Shown here piece by piece: positions 3,366 to 36,276 of a DNA stretch of 36,277 nt; within the stretch, counting starts at the first letter, position 1; every line of letters starts with the position of its first letter. The notes under the pieces were generated by a model. That model did not search any database. It was given only the letters and a program-made list of their open reading frames with translations, and was not told the origin of the DNA. The position numbers were made by a program, and so were the translations under genes. The stretch comes from a virus, in the IMG/VR virus record IMGVR_UViG_3300042367_000673, positions 1-36,277 of that record; one strand, given 5' to 3'.

Positions 3366-4079
3366 ATGTATAAAAGTAGTACCCTCGTGATATGGAGTGG
3401 CCTTTCTCTCTGGGACAGTCAACCTATAATAGTTCTCGCCAGTGGATTCCAACGCCCCAGTATGAATCGTAAGACGGGCTTTATGATACAGACATATATT
3501 CTGCGTCAGGAGGGCTCACCTATATCTAATATACAGTCTGGTGCTGATAGTAGTATATGCGGTGATTGTCCTCTGCGGAAACGGGTGTGTTATGTGGATC
3601 CGCGGGCCTCTAATAACCTATGGCGTATGTGGGAACGTGGTGATCTCGATACCTGGAAGAACACTACGCTACCATTCCCCCTGCGCTTGGGAGCCTATGG
3701 CGATCCAGCTATGGTGCCCCTCTCTGCCTGGCTACCTCTAATTAATAAGGCACCGGGATGGACTGGTTATACTCATCGATGGCGTGATTGTGACCCTGAG
3801 TGGCGCAACTATCTCCATGCTAGTGTAGAGTCACGTGAGGATTTAAAGCTGGCCCACTCTATGGGCTGGGCTACCTATCGGGTTGCTATAGATGGTGAGC
3901 TACCTATTAGGGGAGAGCAGGCCTGTCTCTATTCAGTTAACGAGACTCAGTGTAGCGCGTGCCTTAAATGTAATGGTAATACAGGTAAGAACATAGTCAT
4001 ACCGGTACACGGCGTGGTCCATAAGATACAGGCATTTAACAAGCTTAAGCCACCTATGCCAGACCTAACTCAAGGCTAA
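3366..4079 (+). CDS. Cys-rich conserved phage protein of unknown function
   Basis: Up to 237 residues. It resembles a family I know from phages and bacterial islands, with a TG-x-x-RPS-like N-terminus, a CGDCPL motif (about residues 60-65), a conserved LGAYGDPA-x-VP block (about 102-112), WTGYTHRWR (about 131-139), then ASVES and a C-terminal Cys cluster (Cys at about 187, 195, 198 and 201). The two Cys clusters suggest a bound metal or iron-sulfur site; the biochemical role is not known to me. Family members usually begin close to the VIWSG segment, so the GTG at about 3387 may be the true start. It is an isolated plus-strand gene between minus-strand blocks. Confidence 0.7.
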   Translation: MYKSSTLVIWSGLSLWDSQPIIVLASGFQRPSMNRKTGFMIQTYILRQEGSPISNIQSGADSSICGDCPLRKRVCYVDPRASNNLWRMWERGDLDTWKNTTLPFPLRLGAYGDPAMVPLSAWLPLINKAPGWTGYTHRWRDCDPEWRNYLHASVESREDLKLAHSMGWATYRVAIDGELPIRGEQACLYSVNETQCSACLKCNGNTGKNIVIPVHGVVHKIQAFNKLKPPMPDLTQG

Positions 4080-6981: not shown

Positions 6982-7020
6982 ATAACCACTTCATCCTACC
7001 ACCTCCCCCTCTTCTATTAC

Positions 7021-7196
7021 TGAGCTCTTAGATTCTGGATATTTGCTAGCGGTATTTTGACCTATTATAGGGTATACCCACTCCCCCACCCTCCTGCTGG
7101 CGGTATTTTGGTGTATTATAGGCCTAGAGCTCTTAGATTCTTGATATTTGCTGGCGGTATTTTGGTGTATTATAGGGTATACCCCCTCCCCCACCC
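7021..7196. repeat. Tandem repeats between the lysis operon and the plus-strand island
   Basis: A 71-base unit occurs at 7021-7091 and 7126-7196. A 27-base partial copy of its centre (GCTGGCGGTATTTTGGTGTA then TTATAGG) lies between them at 7096-7122. Each full unit has three blocks: an AGAGCTCTTAGATTCT block, a GGCGGTATTTTG block ending in TATTATAGG, and a GTATACCC-CTCCCCCACCC block. A minus-strand frame runs through (6991-7209) but its protein would just repeat the DNA pattern, so I treat it as non-coding. The location, upstream of both divergent transcription units, suits promoters or operator sites. Confidence 0.7.
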
Positions 7197-7291
7197 AGGG
7201 GCTATCCATTTCAACTAATATAGGGATGCTCGATCCTCTTGGGTATTGGTATCACCTGCTTCAAGTAGATGGTGGTATGGCATTAATAATA

Positions 7292-7339
7292 GGGCCCGCA
7301 GGCCCCTTTTTCCTTCTAGTGAATTTTAATCCTAGGAGG
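7292..7339 (+). promoter_or_regulatory. Terminator + SD-masking hairpin module 1
   Basis: A GGGCC/GGCCC stem (7292-7305) is followed by a T-run, a normal intrinsic terminator. Immediately after it CCTTCTAG (7312-7319) can pair over eight base pairs with CTAGGAGG (7332-7339), the ribosome binding site of the gene at 7344. The loop is exactly 12 bases, TGAATTTTAATC. The same arrangement recurs before most following genes. Confidence 0.75.
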
Positions 7340-11330: not shown

Positions 11331-14300
11331 ATGAATACCATCAACTCTATCGTCTTTCAATCCAATGTTCTTGTAGCCTCTATCAGCGCCGCTATCATCG
11401 CAGGTGCTCCTATTACTGCACGACGTGTAGGCCCTGGTCGCCGTGCTCAGCAGATAGCGAGCCGTCGCGCTAATCGCATAGTACGTCGTCGCTCTCGTCG
11501 TATTGCGCCGGCTGGCCGCCCCATCCGTTCCTTACCTCAGCAACAACGCCCTGCATTTGTAAAATCAGCACGACGTGCGCTACGTCGTGCCGCAGCTGCC
11601 GCAGCCTTAGCTGCCCGCAAACCCGTATTACGTAACCGTAACGTCGTAGACAAACTTGTCTTACGACAACGTAAAGCCAAACCTATACTGCGCGCTGTCA
11701 GCGCAGTATTTGCGCGTCCCTCGCGTTCTATTAGCACCGGCGCTAAAGCCGTTGCTACCGTAAATAATGCTGCTGGTAGTATTATCGCTGCCCTCGACCA
11801 AGGGCGCCTAAACTATCGCGGCAAGGGCCGTACATGTGTAGGTAAGAAGTACCGCACCAAAAACTCTAAAGTAGCTGTACCTACTAAGAAGGCGGCCGCT
11901 AAGGCAGCACGCACCAAGCGCTGTATCTCTGCACATGTGAATCTTAACTTAAGTATACATGCTAGTCGACTTATAGACGCTGGCCGATTGTGTGGGGTTA
12001 CCTTTGTGAAGGGTGCCCTAGCTTCTTACTGCGATAGCATTATTACCTTACCTGATTTCGAAGATGTGCACGTAGTAGCGCACGAGCTAGTCCACCACTG
12101 TCAGGCCCTAGGTCTTACCAAAGATCTAGATGTCTATACAAATACCTCTGATGCTGCCATTGACGCAGGCTTAATTCAATGGGAAGCCACTAAAGCTCAT
12201 TATGAAGGTACCGAGCACGGGAATGATGAGTATGAAGCCGCCTTTCTAATGTATGATCCAGAGCTAGTAATCCGCCTGCTCTGTACTCATTACTTAATGA
12301 GTAAGTTCGTAAAAAGCGGTAAGCCCAGCGTCGACTACGTGTGGATAGACGTAGTAGATGCCATGAATCCCCTCATCTGCCGTGAAGTCCTGGGTATAGA
12401 TGACTCCCGCGTAATTTGGCACAGTACCTACGGGGAGTATTCTGAAGCTGTTGGGCACGACAGCACCGACACACTACTAGACTGGGAATATGTCTATAAC
12501 AATAGCGTCAATAATAGTGATCCTATCGCGCTTACTATTCAGGCTGTTAATAACCTGATAGGTAAAGCCCCCGCGGTAGTGAGTACTCCCTCTGTAGTAA
12601 CTCCGCCTTGCCCGGCTCCTACTACTCTCAGCAGCATGATGGACCGTCCGCTCTCTAACACAGGAGCCCCTACTAAGGGGTTAGAGAGTGATAGCTCCTA
12701 TACCAATACCACCAACACTAGCACTACCATGAAGAGCATTATCGAGATGTTAATTCCTGACCCTAGTACTCTCGGTGGAGTCGTGTCTCCTAAGCAAGTG
12801 GCGCGCATTACGGGAGCTCGTAAAGAGTTAACCCGCTTGTTTGGGGCTAATAACTTCGACCTTCTGCCTGAAGGTCCGATTCTCTATGTAGTGTCTTCTA
12901 ACGGCCGTATGCCTAAGAAGTTCCTTGCGCTTCTAGACCACCGGGTCGTTTACACCACGGATTCTAAAATGAATCCTAAGGTCATTAACTTAGGTGTAAC
13001 TAAGTCTATTCCCTATGAAGACGACAAGCATACCTATACTACTAAGACCGAATGTTTAGTTAGCATGTATAGTGAGCACTTCCTCACTAACTTAGCTACG
13101 TGGTCTGGTGATGACCTGGCCGCTCTCGTAGGCTGTCTGTGTGTCAAACAGCACCGTATTGTTAGTGTTGAGGGTCCCTGTGTTGTCATTAAGGGTAATA
13201 ACCGTAACACTACCTTCAACTTTAGTACAGGTAGCGTCAATGATGGTCGTCAGAGTCGCATCGCTAATGAACTAGTTAAAGTAGGGGGCAAAGATTACAG
13301 TGGTCGCGTAGCCCTTGTAGCACTCTGTATGAAGGTAGTGCATAACGCCACTGGTGCGCGTGCTATCCTCAATGAGGTAACTAACCTGTGGCGCGAGGAC
13401 ATCAACTATGGCGCTCAGCCTAAAGAGGGTCAGTCTCTGTTTGAAATTAATCGCTGTATGACCCGTCCTGTTGTTTTCAAGCCTTGGGATAAGGCCTTCC
13501 CGTTCCTGCAAGTGGAGAACGTTGGCCTCGCACCCAGCGATCTTGAATTGTCGCTCAAAGCCGGCGTTATAGCAGCACCTGATAAGTACAATTCAAAATG
13601 GATCGCTGTAGGTAAGGGTGCCAAGGCCATGTTCCTCGGACTTAAGGATAGTAAGATATACTCCATCCACGACTTTAGCAAGCCCACTAAGGTGTACAAC
13701 CGTCCGCCTAGCTCGGGTAAATACACCCGTGCTGAGATTATAGATCGTCGTGATAGCCTACTTCGCGTTGATTTAGGTGATGATAGCTATAGTTGTGGTG
13801 GTGGCCTCTATCTACGCACCGCATTCACCAATAGCCGCTTTGGCTTTGGTAGCGGTGTTGCTGCTATACGCCGCGACCTTGAGTTCGAATACACCGTACC
13901 AAAGACCATTACTAAGGAGTTTCACGTACTCCGTATTCCTAGCTCAGTTCGCGCTCTTATGGCTGCTGATCTAGATGACGCCACGAGTAAACTCATGGAA
14001 GTCATCGAAGGCAAGATAGAGAAAGCGAAGGGTCAGGTCTATGCTCCTGGTAACCCTATCATTAGCATTATGCAGGGCAAGTACTGCATAGTGAAGAACG
14101 AGACATTCGCGCAGGATATCCGTGTAATAGGCGGGACTGTCACGCGTAATGGCGTCGAGGGCCGCGCTGATAGCGTCACTATTCGACTTGAGACCGAGAT
14201 GGTGGGGCGTGACCAGGTCCTCAAACTCCGCGGTCTAGGTAAGAAGCTTACTACTCTTCCCTATGACGTTAATGGACTATCTCAACCCTGGGATATCATC

Positions 14301-24803: not shown

Positions 24804-25431
24804 ACTAGCATATACATATTATACATCGAAATTATCATCGTGGCAATAATGCCGATGTACTAATTAACGAGGAAGGCCCGGGCTCTAGGAGGTAATTACC
24901 GTTACCTAGTACAACCCTCGATGGCCATAAGTGGTGCTATCTGGGCACCGGCCGCATCTCTGTGAAGGGGGGTGATTATTAAGGCTAATTTTGTGGATAT
25001 GCTAGCAAGATGGGCCTAAATAGTCTAGCGGCCGCACCTCTATAATCCAATACATCCATTATACCACGCCGCTACAGTGGTGTCAACCCCAATATTGAGG
25101 ATACAGTCAACTAACATAAGGCCCGCGGTATGACGGTACGCGGTCGGTGTAGCTCAGCATTGAGGCCATACTGTCACGATGGTGGGCCCTACTACGGTAT
25201 AAGGAACCAGTGTATAAGCTCAGCTACTGTCATATACTAAGGGCCCGCGATGTTATAACACAGTGGGCCCTGCGGTAGAGGGGGCCCCCTCCTTATAACC
25301 ACTCCCATAAGGACGAGGGGCAGAGCAGGTATAGAACAAGGACTATCCGCGGGCCCCAATTAGAATAATAGACACAATAGTGCCATACGATAGTCTAGGC
25401 GGCCGAATGATAGAATATATGTGCCAATATA
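24804..25431. other. Non-coding gap, GGCCCG-rich, no gene found
   Basis: I see no supported ORF. A TACATCG/CGATGTA stem enclosing ATTAT/ATAAT lies near 24822-24860, and many GGGCCC or GGCCCGC words are scattered through an otherwise AT-balanced sequence. Unlike 24487-24803, no repeated units are obvious. Confidence 0.5.
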
Positions 25432-25725: not shown

Positions 25726-25759
25726 GTTCTAAATCTTAAACCCTACTAGGGATTGAAAT
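25726..25759 (+). CRISPR. Solitary, degenerate CRISPR repeat (R1)
   Basis: 34 bases starting GTTCTAAATC and ending GGGATTGAAAT. The inner 26 bases (ATCTTAAACCCTACTAGGGA then TTGAAA) are identical to the repeat at 27405-27441; the 5' part is three bases shorter and the last base is T, not C. The CCCTA-C-TAGGG hairpin is intact. No leader or second repeat adjoins it; about 27 bases later the IS1341-type element begins. Confidence 0.75.
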
Positions 25760-25823
25760 CCATTGATTATCTAATAGAGCTTCTAATTGACACTCCCGTC
25801 GCTGAAAGCGAGGGATTCTTGGT

Positions 25824-27029
25824 TCACTGACTCAAGTTGTCTTGACAGGTATTGCTACCAACCAAAATAGAGCTTAAATCTCCCCAAGCGTTTAGGTCTG
25901 ATGACCAACTTCCGATATGCCCTATCGTAGCTTTTTTGAGTATATTTAATGCCGCCATTTTGTCTCTATCTTCTACATATCCGCAAGAACAAACATGGGT
26001 TCTAACCGATAGAGACTTTTTAATTAACTTGCCACAATTAAAGCATTCTTGGCTAGTATAGGCGGGATTAACAGCAATAGTCAATCTGCCGTATTTAATG
26101 CCAAAATACTCAATCCATTTTCTTAATTGTGACCAGCCCGCATCATTAATACTCTTAGCTAGTTTTCGATTACGCACAAGGTTCTTGACCTTTAAATTTT
26201 CATAGGCTATCAAGTCGTTTGACTGAATTAAGCGGAGTGCCAATCTTTTAGCAAACTCTTCTCGCTGCCTACTTACTTTTAAATGTCCCTTAGCGTACTT
26301 TTGTCTAGCCTTTTTGTAGTTATTAGACTGCTGTTGCCCTCTTCTAAACTTTTTAGATTTTCTCCTATTTAGTTTATTAAGACGCTTCTCTGCTTTTCGA
26401 TAATATTTAGGAGGTTCTACTGTATTGTTGTCGCTATCGGCATAAAGATACTTTAGTCCCATGTCTAAACCTACACATTTTTTGGTAGGCTCTAATTTTG
26501 GGGTTATATCTCTCACGTCAAGTTTTAACATTAACTGGCAATAATACCCGTCAGCACGTTTAACTATTCTCACCCTTTGAATTTGCCATTCTTGAAAATA
26601 AAACAAGTCTCGACTACCAATTAGTTTTAACTCCCCAATGTTTTTTCCATCAGTGAAAGTTATTCTTTTGGTATCTCGATTAATCTTCCAGCCTGATTTT
26701 TTAAACTCAATAGAATGAGTACGTTTAGAGTATTTAGGGTATCCCTTTTTGCCAGGGATTTGGTTTTTACAGTTGTTATAGAACCTTAAAATAGCAGTCC
26801 AAGTCCGTTCGCAAGCCTGTTGACAAGCTGTAGAGTTAAGGTCTTTGACGAAAGAATATTCGTTTCTTAATTCGGTTGTGTATCGATAAATATCCTTTTG
26901 TCCTACACCTTTGTTATCTTCCCAATATCTAAGGCATTTATTCCGAACAAACTGAACTGTCCGAATTGCCTCATCAATGGCTTGATATTGAGATGGCTTT
27001 CCTCTAAGCTTGTACTCTAAAATGAACAT
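25824..27029 (-). CDS. tnpB: TnpB RNA-guided nuclease (IS1341-type)
   Basis: 401 residues from the ATG at 27029. An in-frame ATG eight codons earlier lies at or before the expected transcription start, because a TTGACA (27081-27086) and TAGAAT (27057-27062) promoter with 18-base spacing ends only 28 bases from this codon. The RuvC triad is intact: Asp189 (VGLDMGL), Glu277 (IAYENLKV) and Asp356 (EDRDKMAALN). The zinc ribbon CFNCG/CSCG is complete. TnpB cuts DNA guided by a reRNA (omegaRNA) from the element's right end; here the guide would come from the 27 bases just next to repeat R1. Confidence 0.9.
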   Translation of the reverse strand: MFILEYKLRGKPSQYQAIDEAIRTVQFVRNKCLRYWEDNKGVGQKDIYRYTTELRNEYSFVKDLNSTACQQACERTWTAILRFYNNCKNQIPGKKGYPKYSKRTHSIEFKKSGWKINRDTKRITFTDGKNIGELKLIGSRDLFYFQEWQIQRVRIVKRADGYYCQLMLKLDVRDITPKLEPTKKCVGLDMGLKYLYADSDNNTVEPPKYYRKAEKRLNKLNRRKSKKFRRGQQQSNNYKKARQKYAKGHLKVSRQREEFAKRLALRLIQSNDLIAYENLKVKNLVRNRKLAKSINDAGWSQLRKWIEYFGIKYGRLTIAVNPAYTSQECFNCGKLIKKSLSVRTHVCSCGYVEDRDKMAALNILKKATIGHIGSWSSDLNAWGDLSSILVGSNTCQDNLSQ

Positions 27030-27056
27030 CTTGCGTGCCGACCTACTACGCAAACT

Positions 27057-27086: not shown

Positions 27087-27279
27087 TCGTGCTTCGCTAT
27101 TTCTATGCTGGTCGGCTTTTCATCTCATCGGTAAAACCGAGAGCCTTCAAGCCGACATTTCAGGTAAACGTCAATGATTAAATATCCATGGCCCTCAAGC
27201 AAATAATAACTCAACATGAGAGGCAATAAGCCCGCGGGCCCCTAACCCGTAGTAGTGGCCTTAGCACGAGCGGGGCGCC

Positions 27280-27404
27280 CCTTATCCCGTAAAGTTTTGC
27301 GGGGTCTTGAAACAGTGGGTCATTTGCTGTATAATTGGTTTATTGCGGGTGCGGCGCAAATGAACCTTGAAAACTCCATAGCGTATGGCCTTTACCACTG
27401 GGCG
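27280..27404 (+). promoter_or_regulatory. CRISPR leader-like sequence with consensus promoter
   Basis: TTGAAA (27307-27312), 17 bases, TATAAT (27330-27335): near-ideal host sigma-70 promoter pointing into the CRISPR repeat at 27405. Between them and the repeat lies a roughly 70-base segment with the text GAACCTTGAAAACTCCATAG, which to me resembles leaders of cyanobacterial CRISPR arrays. It is bordered on the left by phage-type GGCCC-rich sequence. Confidence 0.7.
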
Positions 27405-27441
27405 GTTCGAATTAATCTTAAACCCTACTAGGGATTGAAAC
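27405..27441 (+). CRISPR. Solitary full-length CRISPR repeat (R2), promoter-driven
   Basis: 37 bases, beginning GTTCGAATTAATC and ending AGGGATTGAAAC, with the CCCTA-C-TAGGG hairpin and the GATTGAAAC end that becomes the crRNA 5' handle in many type I-D and III systems. Only one repeat is present and no second repeat follows within several hundred bases, so this is not an array. What follows in spacer position is a tRNA 3' half. Solitary repeat units in phages can act as RNA anti-CRISPRs (Racr). Confidence 0.8.
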
Positions 27442-27483
27442 CTCATAAGACGGCTCAAAGTGATTCGATTCCGCTATTCTGCA
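27441..27483 (+). pseudogene. tRNA(CAT) 3' half abutting the CRISPR repeat
   Basis: 43 bases aligned without gaps to the anticodon loop, variable region, T-arm and acceptor strand of the intact tRNA at 28640-28712. There are five differences, all transitions (variable loop two, T-stem two, acceptor one). The 5' half is absent, and the join falls exactly where the repeat ends at the base before the anticodon loop. Confidence 0.75.
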
Positions 27484-28639: not shown

Positions 28640-28712
28640 GCAGGATTGGCCGATAGGTGGAGGCACCGTCCTCATAAGACGGCTTAGAGCGGTTCGATTC
28701 CGCTATCCTGCA
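28640..28712 (+). tRNA. tRNA with CAT anticodon (Met or lysidine-type Ile)
   Basis: 73 bases. Acceptor GCAGGAT/ATCCTGC (7 pairs), D-stem GCC/GGC with GG in the loop, anticodon stem CCGTC/GACGG with loop CTCATAA (T33, anticodon CAT), variable CTTAG, T-stem AGCGG/CCGCT with loop TTCGATT, discriminator A. No encoded CCA. CAT can read Met, or Ile2 (ATA) if the C is modified by host TilS; ATA codons are frequent in these phage genes, which would favour Ile2, but I cannot decide from the sequence. Two partial copies lie upstream. Confidence 0.9.
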
Positions 28713-29232: not shown

Positions 29233-29856
29233 ATCAAGTACCTACCACCACGTAAAGCCGCTAAATCCCTTGGCGTTTGCGAGAGAACACTTAGACGATG
29301 GGAAAAAGCAGGATTGATAGAAACCATTAAGACCCCTTCTGGGCAAAGAAGATACAATGTCGAATCCTACCAATCAAGAACAGCCACTAACAAGCAAAGA
29401 CCCGTTATCCTCTATGCTAGGGTCAGCAGTAGGGCACAGCAACCAGACCTCCAAAGGCAAGTTGCAACCCTCGCAAGTCTCTACCCCCAAGCGGAAATTG
29501 TTCAAGAAATCGGAGGTGGTCTCAACTTCAAAAGAAAGAAACTTCTTTTCTTACTGGGACGAATCCTGTCTGGAGACATCTCAATGGTTGTCGTTGCCCA
29601 TAAAGATAGACTCGCAAGGTTTGGATTTGACCTCTTCCAATGGCTCTGTGACCAGAATAACTGCAAACTCCTGGTTCTCAACCAGTCAAACTTTAGTCCA
29701 GAACGAGAAATGGTTGAAGATATTCTCGCCATACTCCACTGCTTTAGCAGCAGACTCTACGGACTCAGAAAGTACAAAACTCAAATCAAAGAAGATAAAA
29801 GTTTACCCATCGAGGGAATTGAACCAAGTTTGGAGGAAATGGTTAGCGGCGGTTAG
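29233..29856 (+). CDS. tnpA: IS607-family serine recombinase TnpA, start codon apparently lost
   Basis: The frame from 29233 reads KYLPPRKAAKSLGVCERTLR, the MerR-type helix-turn-helix of IS607 transposases, then SGQRRYNV, the resolvase catalytic ILYARVSSRAQQ with the nucleophile in VSS, and AHKDRLARFGFDL. It should begin with ATG before KYL, but the codon is ATC. The next in-frame start, TTG at 29314, falls after the DNA-binding helix. A stop lies four codons upstream (29221-29223). So the transposase is either made from an ATC codon at low level, truncated, or inactive. The catalytic domain itself is intact. Overlaps tnpB. Confidence 0.8.
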   Translation: MKYLPPRKAAKSLGVCERTLRRWEKAGLIETIKTPSGQRRYNVESYQSRTATNKQRPVILYARVSSRAQQPDLQRQVATLASLYPQAEIVQEIGGGLNFKRKKLLFLLGRILSGDISMVVVAHKDRLARFGFDLFQWLCDQNNCKLLVLNQSNFSPEREMVEDILAILHCFSSRLYGLRKYKTQIKEDKSLPIEGIEPSLEEMVSGG

Positions 29857-30904
29857 ATTTTGCTATAACCAAGCTATTAGCCATCAAAGGCTTAATGGGA
29901 AGACCAGTAAATTAAGCCTTAGAAACGCCATAATGCAATCCGACTTGCCGGATTGGGTTAAAGATACCCCTTGCCATATTCGACAAAATGCCGTCTTTGA
30001 TGCCCACCTAGCCTTTAGCGCATCTAAAGATGCCAAGTTCCGTAGCGTCCGAAGCTACAGTCAATCTATTAAATTTAACGCTTCCAACTTCTCCAAGGGT
30101 ACCTGGTACTCTATTTTAACCAAGGGTCTAACTTTCAATAGCTCCGAAACTATTCCGGAGTGCCATTCTGGAACCCAGTTGGTGTTCTGCAAAGGTAGAT
30201 GGTTTGCCGTCTTCCCCGTGGAATCGGCAGTTAAAGACAATTATTCCTCCTCTGTAATAGCTTTAGACCCAGGAATCCGTACTTTTATGACGGGTTTCGA
30301 CAGTCAGAAGTTCCTAGAGTTTGGAAATGGGGATATGGGGAGAATTACCCGCCTATGCCAGCATCTAGATGGTTTGATGGGTAAAATTGTCAAAGCCCCC
30401 AATGGGAAGAAACGACCGATGAGAAAGGCGGCTCAGAGACTGAGAAACAAGATTAAAAACCTTGTAAACGAATGCCACAAAAAAGTTGCTTGCTTTCTAA
30501 CAAAAAACTACCGAGTCATATTCCTTCCCAAATTTGAGACATCCCAAATGGTTGCCAGAGCGGGTCGTAAACTCAGTAGTAAGACAGCAAGAAAAATGCT
30601 AACTTGGGCACATTACCGCTTCAAAATGGAGTTAAAACACCAGGCAAGCCTTAGAAACTGCCAAGTTGTGGATGTCACAGAAGAATACACTTCTAAGACT
30701 TGTACCAAGTGTGGAAAAATCCACCCGACCTTGGGTGGTTCCAAGATATTCTCTTGTAAAAGTTGTGGAAACACACTACCAAGGGATTTCAATGGTGCTT
30801 TGGGCATTATGCTTAAAGCTTTGAGGGATACCTCCTCTGTTGTCTTCAATGGTGACAGTGCTATCGTAAAGCTTTCCGGGAATGCCCTAGAAAGTCCTGC
30901 GTAA
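29714..30904 (+). CDS. tnpB: TnpB RNA-guided nuclease of IS607 element
   Basis: 396 residues if begun at TTG 29714; the frame is open back to 29357, but homology starts only around KKIKVYPSRELNQVWRKWL. No ATG exists in the right place, so the start is uncertain. The RuvC triad is intact: Asp185 (IALDPGIRTF), Glu275 (LPKFETSQ) and Asp358 (LPRDFNGALG). The zinc ribbon CTKCGK/CKSCG is complete. Overlaps tnpA by about 140 bases, as usual in IS607. Function: RNA-guided cutting of empty target sites, favouring retention of the element. Shares little with the other TnpB in the window except the catalytic core. Confidence 0.85.
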   Translation: MKIFSPYSTALAADSTDSESTKLKSKKIKVYPSRELNQVWRKWLAAVRFCYNQAISHQRLNGKTSKLSLRNAIMQSDLPDWVKDTPCHIRQNAVFDAHLAFSASKDAKFRSVRSYSQSIKFNASNFSKGTWYSILTKGLTFNSSETIPECHSGTQLVFCKGRWFAVFPVESAVKDNYSSSVIALDPGIRTFMTGFDSQKFLEFGNGDMGRITRLCQHLDGLMGKIVKAPNGKKRPMRKAAQRLRNKIKNLVNECHKKVACFLTKNYRVIFLPKFETSQMVARAGRKLSSKTARKMLTWAHYRFKMELKHQASLRNCQVVDVTEEYTSKTCTKCGKIHPTLGGSKIFSCKSCGNTLPRDFNGALGIMLKALRDTSSVVFNGDSAIVKLSGNALESPA

Positions 30905-35529: not shown

Positions 35530-36276
35530 TTAGCCCATATAAGTGTCAGTTTCGGGATTGAAATTTGTTAGGTACCGGACAGCCTTAGTCACTCTAAAAT
35601 TGTCGATATTGGCCCCCCAGCAATAACCTGTAGAGAAATAAATTCCAATATTATAAAAGGTTTCAGTATAATTAGAGGCATTAGTAGATTGGTTGATCAA
35701 GACTCCATTTAAATATACTCTTGATTGGTTGGTTCCGGTGCCCTGACGAACGTAAGCAATGTGAAACCAACTACCGATAGGAAGTGCCACTACATTACTA
35801 TAACCAATCCCGCTTAACGAATTACTAGAAGCAAATAAAATAACAGTAAAAGTGCTATTACTTGTACCAAATGATAAAATTCCATTATTCCCGCGAGATG
35901 TGGCGGCAAATAGCCACATCTCAATAGTAAAATTCCCAGTTCCCAATGCTAAATTAGGGTGATTGACACTTAAATACCCGTTTGTACCAGGAAACAAGCC
36001 AGAAGCAGCTCCGTATTTAGATCGAGTGGTACTCGTTACTACACCCGTAGTTCCCAGTCGCGAAACCGGCAGTAACAGTGGACCACTGTCAGTAAATACG
36101 GTTCCATTGTTTGCGCCATTGAATCGAAGATCGCAAACAACACTATTGACAAAAGGATCACTGGATTGAATCCAAAGATTTCGCCTTTGTCGATTATAAA
36201 CGTCAAGGACATTCCAATTCCCTGATCTATTGGCTGCATCCCAATTAGGTTGGGTTCCGATAAAGCCGCCCTCACG
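35530..36276 (-). CDS. LamG-domain tail fibre/adhesin protein (5' truncated by window)
   Basis: The frame continues without a stop to the window edge, so the Met at 35997 is internal; at least 249 residues are visible. After RSGNWNVLDVYNRQRR and SSDPFVNSVVCDLRFNG comes a laminin-G/concanavalin-like domain: TFTDSG-type strand, SKYGAASGLFPGTNGYLSV, NFTIEMWLFA, GSWFHIAYVRQG, RVYLNGVLI, DNFRVTKAVRY. Phage proteins of this plan bind host surface glycans. Encoded directly upstream of the 162-residue protein. The fibre tip region continues outside. Confidence 0.85.
   Translation of the reverse strand, partial: REGGFIGTQPNWDAANRSGNWNVLDVYNRQRRNLWIQSSDPFVNSVVCDLRFNGANNGTVFTDSGPLLLPVSRLGTTGVVTSTTRSKYGAASGLFPGTNGYLSVNHPNLALGTGNFTIEMWLFAATSRGNNGILSFGTSNSTFTVILFASSNSLSGIGYSNVVALPIGSWFHIAYVRQGTGTNQSRVYLNGVLINQSTNASNYTETFYNIGIYFSTGYCWGANIDNFRVTKAVRYLTNFNPETDTYMG

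Follow-up and report, generated by a model that had tools for sequence, protein, structure and literature searches.

A solitary CRISPR repeat in a Microcystis phage as a probable scar of recombination with a host type I-D array

The repeat and its surroundings

The subject of this analysis is a single repeat of the clustered regularly interspaced short palindromic repeats (CRISPR) kind that stands, outside any array, in a viral DNA of 36,277 nucleotides (nt), IMG/VR record IMGVR_UViG_3300042367_000673 (the window, taken at its full length). Its neighborhood matches Ma-LMM01 and seven MaMV records, and on sequence the contig is a Microcystis phage of the genus Fukuivirus (Ma-LMM01/MaMV-like). 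The 37-nt repeat occupies 27405..27441 (plus strand, like all features below unless noted); none is expected in shuffled sequence. It is 35/37 identical to the Microcystis type I-D repeat and retains both the Cas6 stem (CCCT/AGGG) and the 8-nt handle (ATTGAAAC). Ahead of it lies a leader (27271..27404) with its own promoter: TTGAAA at 27307-27312, a 17-base spacer, and TATAAT at 27330-27335. Directly at the repeat's end, in the position of a spacer, begins the 3' half of a duplicated tRNA-Met(CAT) (27442..27476, opening with CTCATAAGACGGCTCAAAGTG); an intact tRNA-Met(CAT) is found at 28640..28712.

The initial annotation had described this arrangement, a consensus promoter and leader-like sequence driving one full repeat that runs into a CAT tRNA half, and it is borne out. 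The repeat had also been called solitary, which is correct in that no other repeat lies within 100 bp, and needs amending in that a decayed second copy (GTTC-TAAATCTTAAACCCTACTAGGGATTGAAAT, 25726..25759) is present, the nearest other one, at a distance of 1.6 kb. No second repeat follows 27442 in the window or in the related contigs L006, L007 and L011, and the locus thus lacks what makes a mini-CRISPR array, at least one spacer between two repeats. The absence of cas genes likewise holds among the proteins scanned around the locus, which are not all of the window's open reading frames. An Rfam search gave no match. An assembly chimera can be rejected: the same repeat-flank junction recurs in L006, L007 and L011, three metagenome contigs from different samples, and the isolates LMM01 and MaMV carry the same repeat family.

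Host origin of the leader and repeat

Window positions 27270-27441 align end to end, over 172 nt, with the leader and first repeat of Microcystis arrays, at 94% identity in one genome (L031) and at 89-92% in four more. The L031 array is of type I-D, because cas6d, cas4 (best model cas4d), cas1 and cas2 (best model cas2d) lie directly upstream of its leader. The site of MaeCRf2 (CTTATCCCGTAAGGTTTTGC), a leader primer for Microcystis type I-D arrays (PMC5852275), is present with one mismatch in the window and exactly in L006 and L007. What had been termed leader-like is in fact a host type I-D leader; the stretch as a whole is, by this alignment, a captured piece of a host type I-D CRISPR locus, and the comparison proposed at the outset for naming the cas type gives Microcystis type I-D. 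Since the window leader aligns with that of the host array, the TTGAAA/TATAAT promoter is that of the host array, its -35 box being slightly better.

One spacer of a host type I-D array (L025, Microcystis) matches a protospacer at 3769..3803 of the window in 35/35 positions, next to a protospacer-adjacent motif (PAM) GTT, which shows that such hosts do, to judge by their spacers, target the phage. NIES-298, the M. aeruginosa host of Ma-LMM01, carries on a plasmid a small degenerate array of about 5 type I-D-like repeats (L043, NZ_CP046059.1 ~7005-7300).

Empty alleles and the PAM

Two IMG/VR contigs (L048 and L050) have the same locus without the repeat and in its place a complete duplicate tRNA-Met-like sequence. 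This empty allele reads ...GGCACCGTC|CTCATAAGACGGCTCAAAGTGGTTCG..., the bar marking the junction, and differs from the window by 1 nt in the 50 that follow the bar; the three bases directly before it are GTC in both contigs. The window has leader plus repeat where this allele has the last 92 or so nt up to the bar, that GTC included. On its left side the exchanged stretch ends in 7 bp of microhomology, GCGGGGC (27270..27276), which L048, as an empty allele, has in common with the host leader.

The type I-D PAM is GTN in Synechocystis and GTH in M. aeruginosa (PMC10212523). GTC is such a PAM, and it stands directly before the tRNA half in the relatives; the tRNA half would therefore be a protospacer, with the repeat placed exactly at the PAM site. 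This differs from the suggestion that the tRNA half could serve as an RNase P/Z site or a stable 3' end: nothing points that way, ARAGORN finds no tRNA at the place, and a tRNA-end function is unnecessary and was rejected, the tRNA half being ancestral phage sequence. The segment in spacer position is accordingly taken as a protospacer and not as a designed 3' end. The intact tRNA-Met retains a related site: at 28671-28706 the sequence found in spacer position recurs with 4 mismatches (at its positions 15, 17, 20 and 22), preceded by a PAM GTC at 28668-28670.

Recurrence of repeats at PAM boundaries

The decayed repeat at 25726..25759 (27 nt identical, its left edge blurred by palindromic surroundings) sits where at least 15 homologous copies have GTT. 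The 36 nt after it (25760..25795, starting CCATTGATTATC) are identical, 36/36, in MaMV-DL/CH/DH01, where they are preceded by a PAM GTT and no repeat. Ma-LMM01 supplies a further case: at 13613-13649 an exact 37-nt repeat lies between two phage flanks, at a place where MaMV-DH01/-DC have 861-979 bp more. In DH01/DC the sequence of the right flank comes after GTG. On the left the repeat is flanked by 34 nt that likewise come after a GTG, although this left-hand GTG counts for little alone, because more than one spacer length could be accepted there. The order is thus that of protospacer X, repeat, protospacer Y, as if two neighboring spacers of one host array had been used. Contig L052 has the same X-repeat, joined 24 nt further right, exactly after a GTT; that GTT is ATT in MaMV-DC and in L051, as if mutated.

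All four clean solitary repeats with known empty alleles start exactly at the PAM|protospacer boundary (GTC, GTT, GTG, GTT). With a background GTN frequency of 0.056 (5.6% of positions), the chance of 4/4 is about 1e-5. In a looser count, which includes mini-array junctions and a diverged repeat of MaMV-DL01, about half of 9-10 junctions fit (p ~0.0001 to 0.001). The repeat end and the PAM|protospacer boundary of the empty allele fall together, as spacer-protospacer recombination would have it. As a test of generality, a type I-C repeat was tried in phage records and yielded no clean solitary repeat, and in the comparison of Nostoc phage YongM with A-1/YongM2 the junction is too divergent for a PAM to be read. 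MaMV-DL01 also has two diverged repeats in inverted orientation (L037 ~1974-2080; PP681323.1 159473-159580), where LMM01 homology resumes at the repeat end and the preceding bases are not GTN.

Between the two repeats of the window lies a gene for a TnpB-like protein (OrfB_IS605 / Cas12f1-like TNB; 25824..27053, minus strand), and the decayed repeat sits beyond this IS605-type gene. TnpB was considered as owner of the repeats and rejected: in MaMV-DL01 the TnpB is not bordered by these repeats, and in LMM01 repeats occur although TnpB is missing from this place. Its position between the repeats is probably incidental. A second TnpB-like protein (515 aa, Cas12f1-like TNB domain) is encoded at 29357-30904, 2 kb from the repeat.

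A proposed route from host array to phage genome

How might a host leader and repeat come to stand exactly at a phage PAM? The solitary repeat is probably a recombination scar, formed between a host CRISPR array and the protospacer that it targeted in a lytic Microcystis phage, with the repeat replacing the PAM and so masking the target. The following steps are proposed: 1) An ancestor of the phage would have been targeted by a host type I-D array whose leader-proximal spacer was directed against the duplicated tRNA-Met gene, with GTC as PAM. 2) Cleavage near the protospacer would leave a broken end identical to the array spacer. 3) Recombination would proceed through about 35 bp of spacer/protospacer identity on one side and the 7-bp GCGGGGC microhomology on the other. 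4) Copying from the array would bring in a repeat, and the leader as well when the spacer is leader-proximal, so that leader and first repeat end up in place of the PAM and the 5' half of the tRNA. Type I systems do not cut a protospacer that has the same flank as in the array. In the phage, as in the array, the protospacer would now have the repeat (...GAAAC) in front of it; with the PAM thereby lost, the target would be masked. The captured promoter probably transcribes a repeat-tRNA-half RNA, which could also occupy Cas6d/Cascade, a possible secondary effect like that of a CRISPR RNA decoy.

The identity of leader and repeat, the empty alleles, the exact junctions and the PAMs are all seen directly by comparison; the donor array, the break and its repair route, and the benefit of escape are what we infer from them. 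Several observations weigh against this account. No donor array with spacers matching the window junctions or LMM01 X/Y was found in 12 Microcystis genomes or among 715 spacers. The intact tRNA-Met copy (GTC, only 4 mismatches) would stay unmasked by an escape at 27442. Junctions within the LMM01 and DL01 mini-arrays (except at DL01 spacer 1), and the diverged repeat at DL01 159552, are without GTN in the available relatives. One of the four PAMs, GTG, does not fit GTH, the motif reported for interference in M. aeruginosa; LMM01 and L052 have one X-repeat join in common and so are not fully independent; and the "clean" junctions were picked after inspection of the data.

Alternative explanations

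The initial annotation had proposed an RNA anti-CRISPR (Racr), that is, a repeat kept because its transcript imitates a CRISPR RNA (crRNA) and keeps Cas6d/Cascade of the host's type I-D system occupied. The locus does have the attributes of a solitary repeat unit (SRU): a single host-matching repeat with none other within 100 bp, a promoter less than 250 bp upstream, and no cas genes seen nearby; the host system can now be named. Promoter, leader, 35/37 repeat identity and intact Cas6 stem and handle all suit such a role, as does conservation in four phage contigs. The predicted small RNA would start near 27342 and be cut before AUUGAAAC; having no downstream repeat it would have an abnormal 3' end, and a transcript with intact stem and handle ending so could conceivably form a non-productive complex. 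Racrs inhibit many CRISPR types, and expressed non-targeting crRNAs also reduce interference (PMC10651486). Productive use is another matter: a working crRNA would have a seed matching the phage's own tRNA-Met at 28671 (PAM GTC), a cost that disfavors strong use of this kind. What tells against an RNA function as the reason for the structure is that the solitary repeats at window 25726 and LMM01 13613, with the same type of junction, have no leader at all, and that exact joins at PAM boundaries need no RNA function. The empty alleles explain the structure as a recombination scar, and the Racr, though still a candidate, is unlikely to be why the repeat is there.

Distinctly less likely is the collapse of a phage-borne mini-array, in which a leader-repeat-spacer-repeat unit directed against its own neighboring gene would have lost its second repeat, together with the PAM, by recombination between spacer and nearby protospacer. 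This phage group is, by comparison, rich in pieces of host type I-D arrays, and relatives do have two- and three-repeat mini-arrays near the locus with spacers against nearby phage sequence. MaMV-DL01/DL02/CH01/CH02 have two repeats around a 39-nt spacer, and Ma-LMM01 has a type I-D mini-array of three repeats with a promoter of its own (L003 3396-3577; NC_008562.1 ~35763-35942; in GenBank the repeats bear no other label than "56 bp repeat unit"), the first spacer of which matches related phages, including window 24927-24962, in 35/36 positions. However, the mini-arrays of the relatives have a different leader; in the window the host leader begins at a microhomology exactly in place of phage DNA; and the LMM01 X-repeat-Y fits a host array better. 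The MaMV-DL/CH spacer (L004 1665-1780; also L014, L015 and L016) corresponds, in reverse complement, to the leader of the mini-array itself in the form that LMM01, DH01 and L006 have. Half a repeat (...CTTAATCCCTACTAGGGATTGAAAC) also occurs within a long inverted repeat (CACAACAGCTAA...TTAGCTGTTGTG), the orientation of which varies from phage to phage (L012 3300-3373, L013 4909-4982, L006 152-225, L044-L050, L053), and no empty allele of it was found.

Still more doubtful is a weapon against related phages, a superinfection exclusion of the mini-CRISPR-array type. The sequence after the second repeat does have its 36/36 matches with PAM GTT in MaMV-DL/CH/DH01, and the window itself no longer has the PAM; for the DL01 mini-array spacer there are 39/39 matches with GTT in LMM01, DH01 and L006, DL01's own copy differing at positions 7-10. 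But the tRNA target of the sequence at 27442 has 4 mismatches and a GTC in the phage itself and in its relatives alike, no second repeat is present at 27442, and the repeat at 25726 has no leader. Half-site integration, a joining of a phage DNA end to the host leader-repeat by host Cas1-Cas2, is very improbable: from the known integration reaction, half integration on the spacer side would be expected to yield the order leader-repeat-phage, exactly bounded, but it leaves unexplained the return to phage DNA at the left microhomology and the X-repeat-Y of LMM01.

Relation to known systems and implications

Recombination between arrays and phages is already known from staphylococci, and recombination of spacers with phage targets is known to move CRISPR loci (Varble 2019; Watson 2018, as cited in PMC8616872). 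To go by that citing account, spacer-protospacer homology likewise joins host CRISPR DNA to phage DNA in those systems, and the loci are moved by escape transduction particles; the Microcystis phages differ in that stable lineages have retained nothing more than a repeat, in some cases with its leader, at the former PAM site.

Racrs and SRUs (PMC10651486) are alike in consisting of a single host-type repeat in a phage, with a promoter upstream and no cas genes seen nearby. The window differs in having a complete host leader and a protospacer after the repeat; two further examples in the phage group lack a promoter-bearing leader, and the role as inhibitor is only a candidate one. The mini-CRISPR arrays of SPV1/SPV2 (PMC6858448) have in common with the window a host-like leader, a host repeat, targets near the array and self-escape by local changes, and the MaMV-DL01/CH01 mini-arrays resemble their interviral class. 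The window locus has no second repeat, and so no repeat-flanked spacer, and the stand-alone repeats of the SPVs have no leaders; where phage mini-arrays lack a leader, it has been suggested that they recombined with host arrays (PMC6858448). Nostoc cyanophages N-1 (PMC4916379) and YongM also combine a leader with a related repeat, but as true arrays of at least two repeats; in YongM (L054 560-800) leader-like sequence and two repeats form a mini-array that is absent from the corresponding place in phage A-1. The literature searched, outside which most subscription papers lay, yielded no description of phage genomes in which repeats have taken the place of PAMs.

Copying a repeat from the host array, by which a target comes to look like "self", may be an escape route (PAM masking) that phages take time and again, and may generally give rise to their solitary repeats and mini-arrays, some of which would evolve into RNA anti-CRISPRs; so broad a statement is offered tentatively. 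For the origin of such elements, the empty alleles, donor-type leader and exact PAM junctions, visible here together, provide a concrete and testable route: a phage under CRISPR attack would repair itself from the attacking array, gaining at once protection at the target and a promoter-driven, crRNA-like gene. If true, this would stand beside point mutation, deletion and anti-CRISPRs as a further class of escape event.
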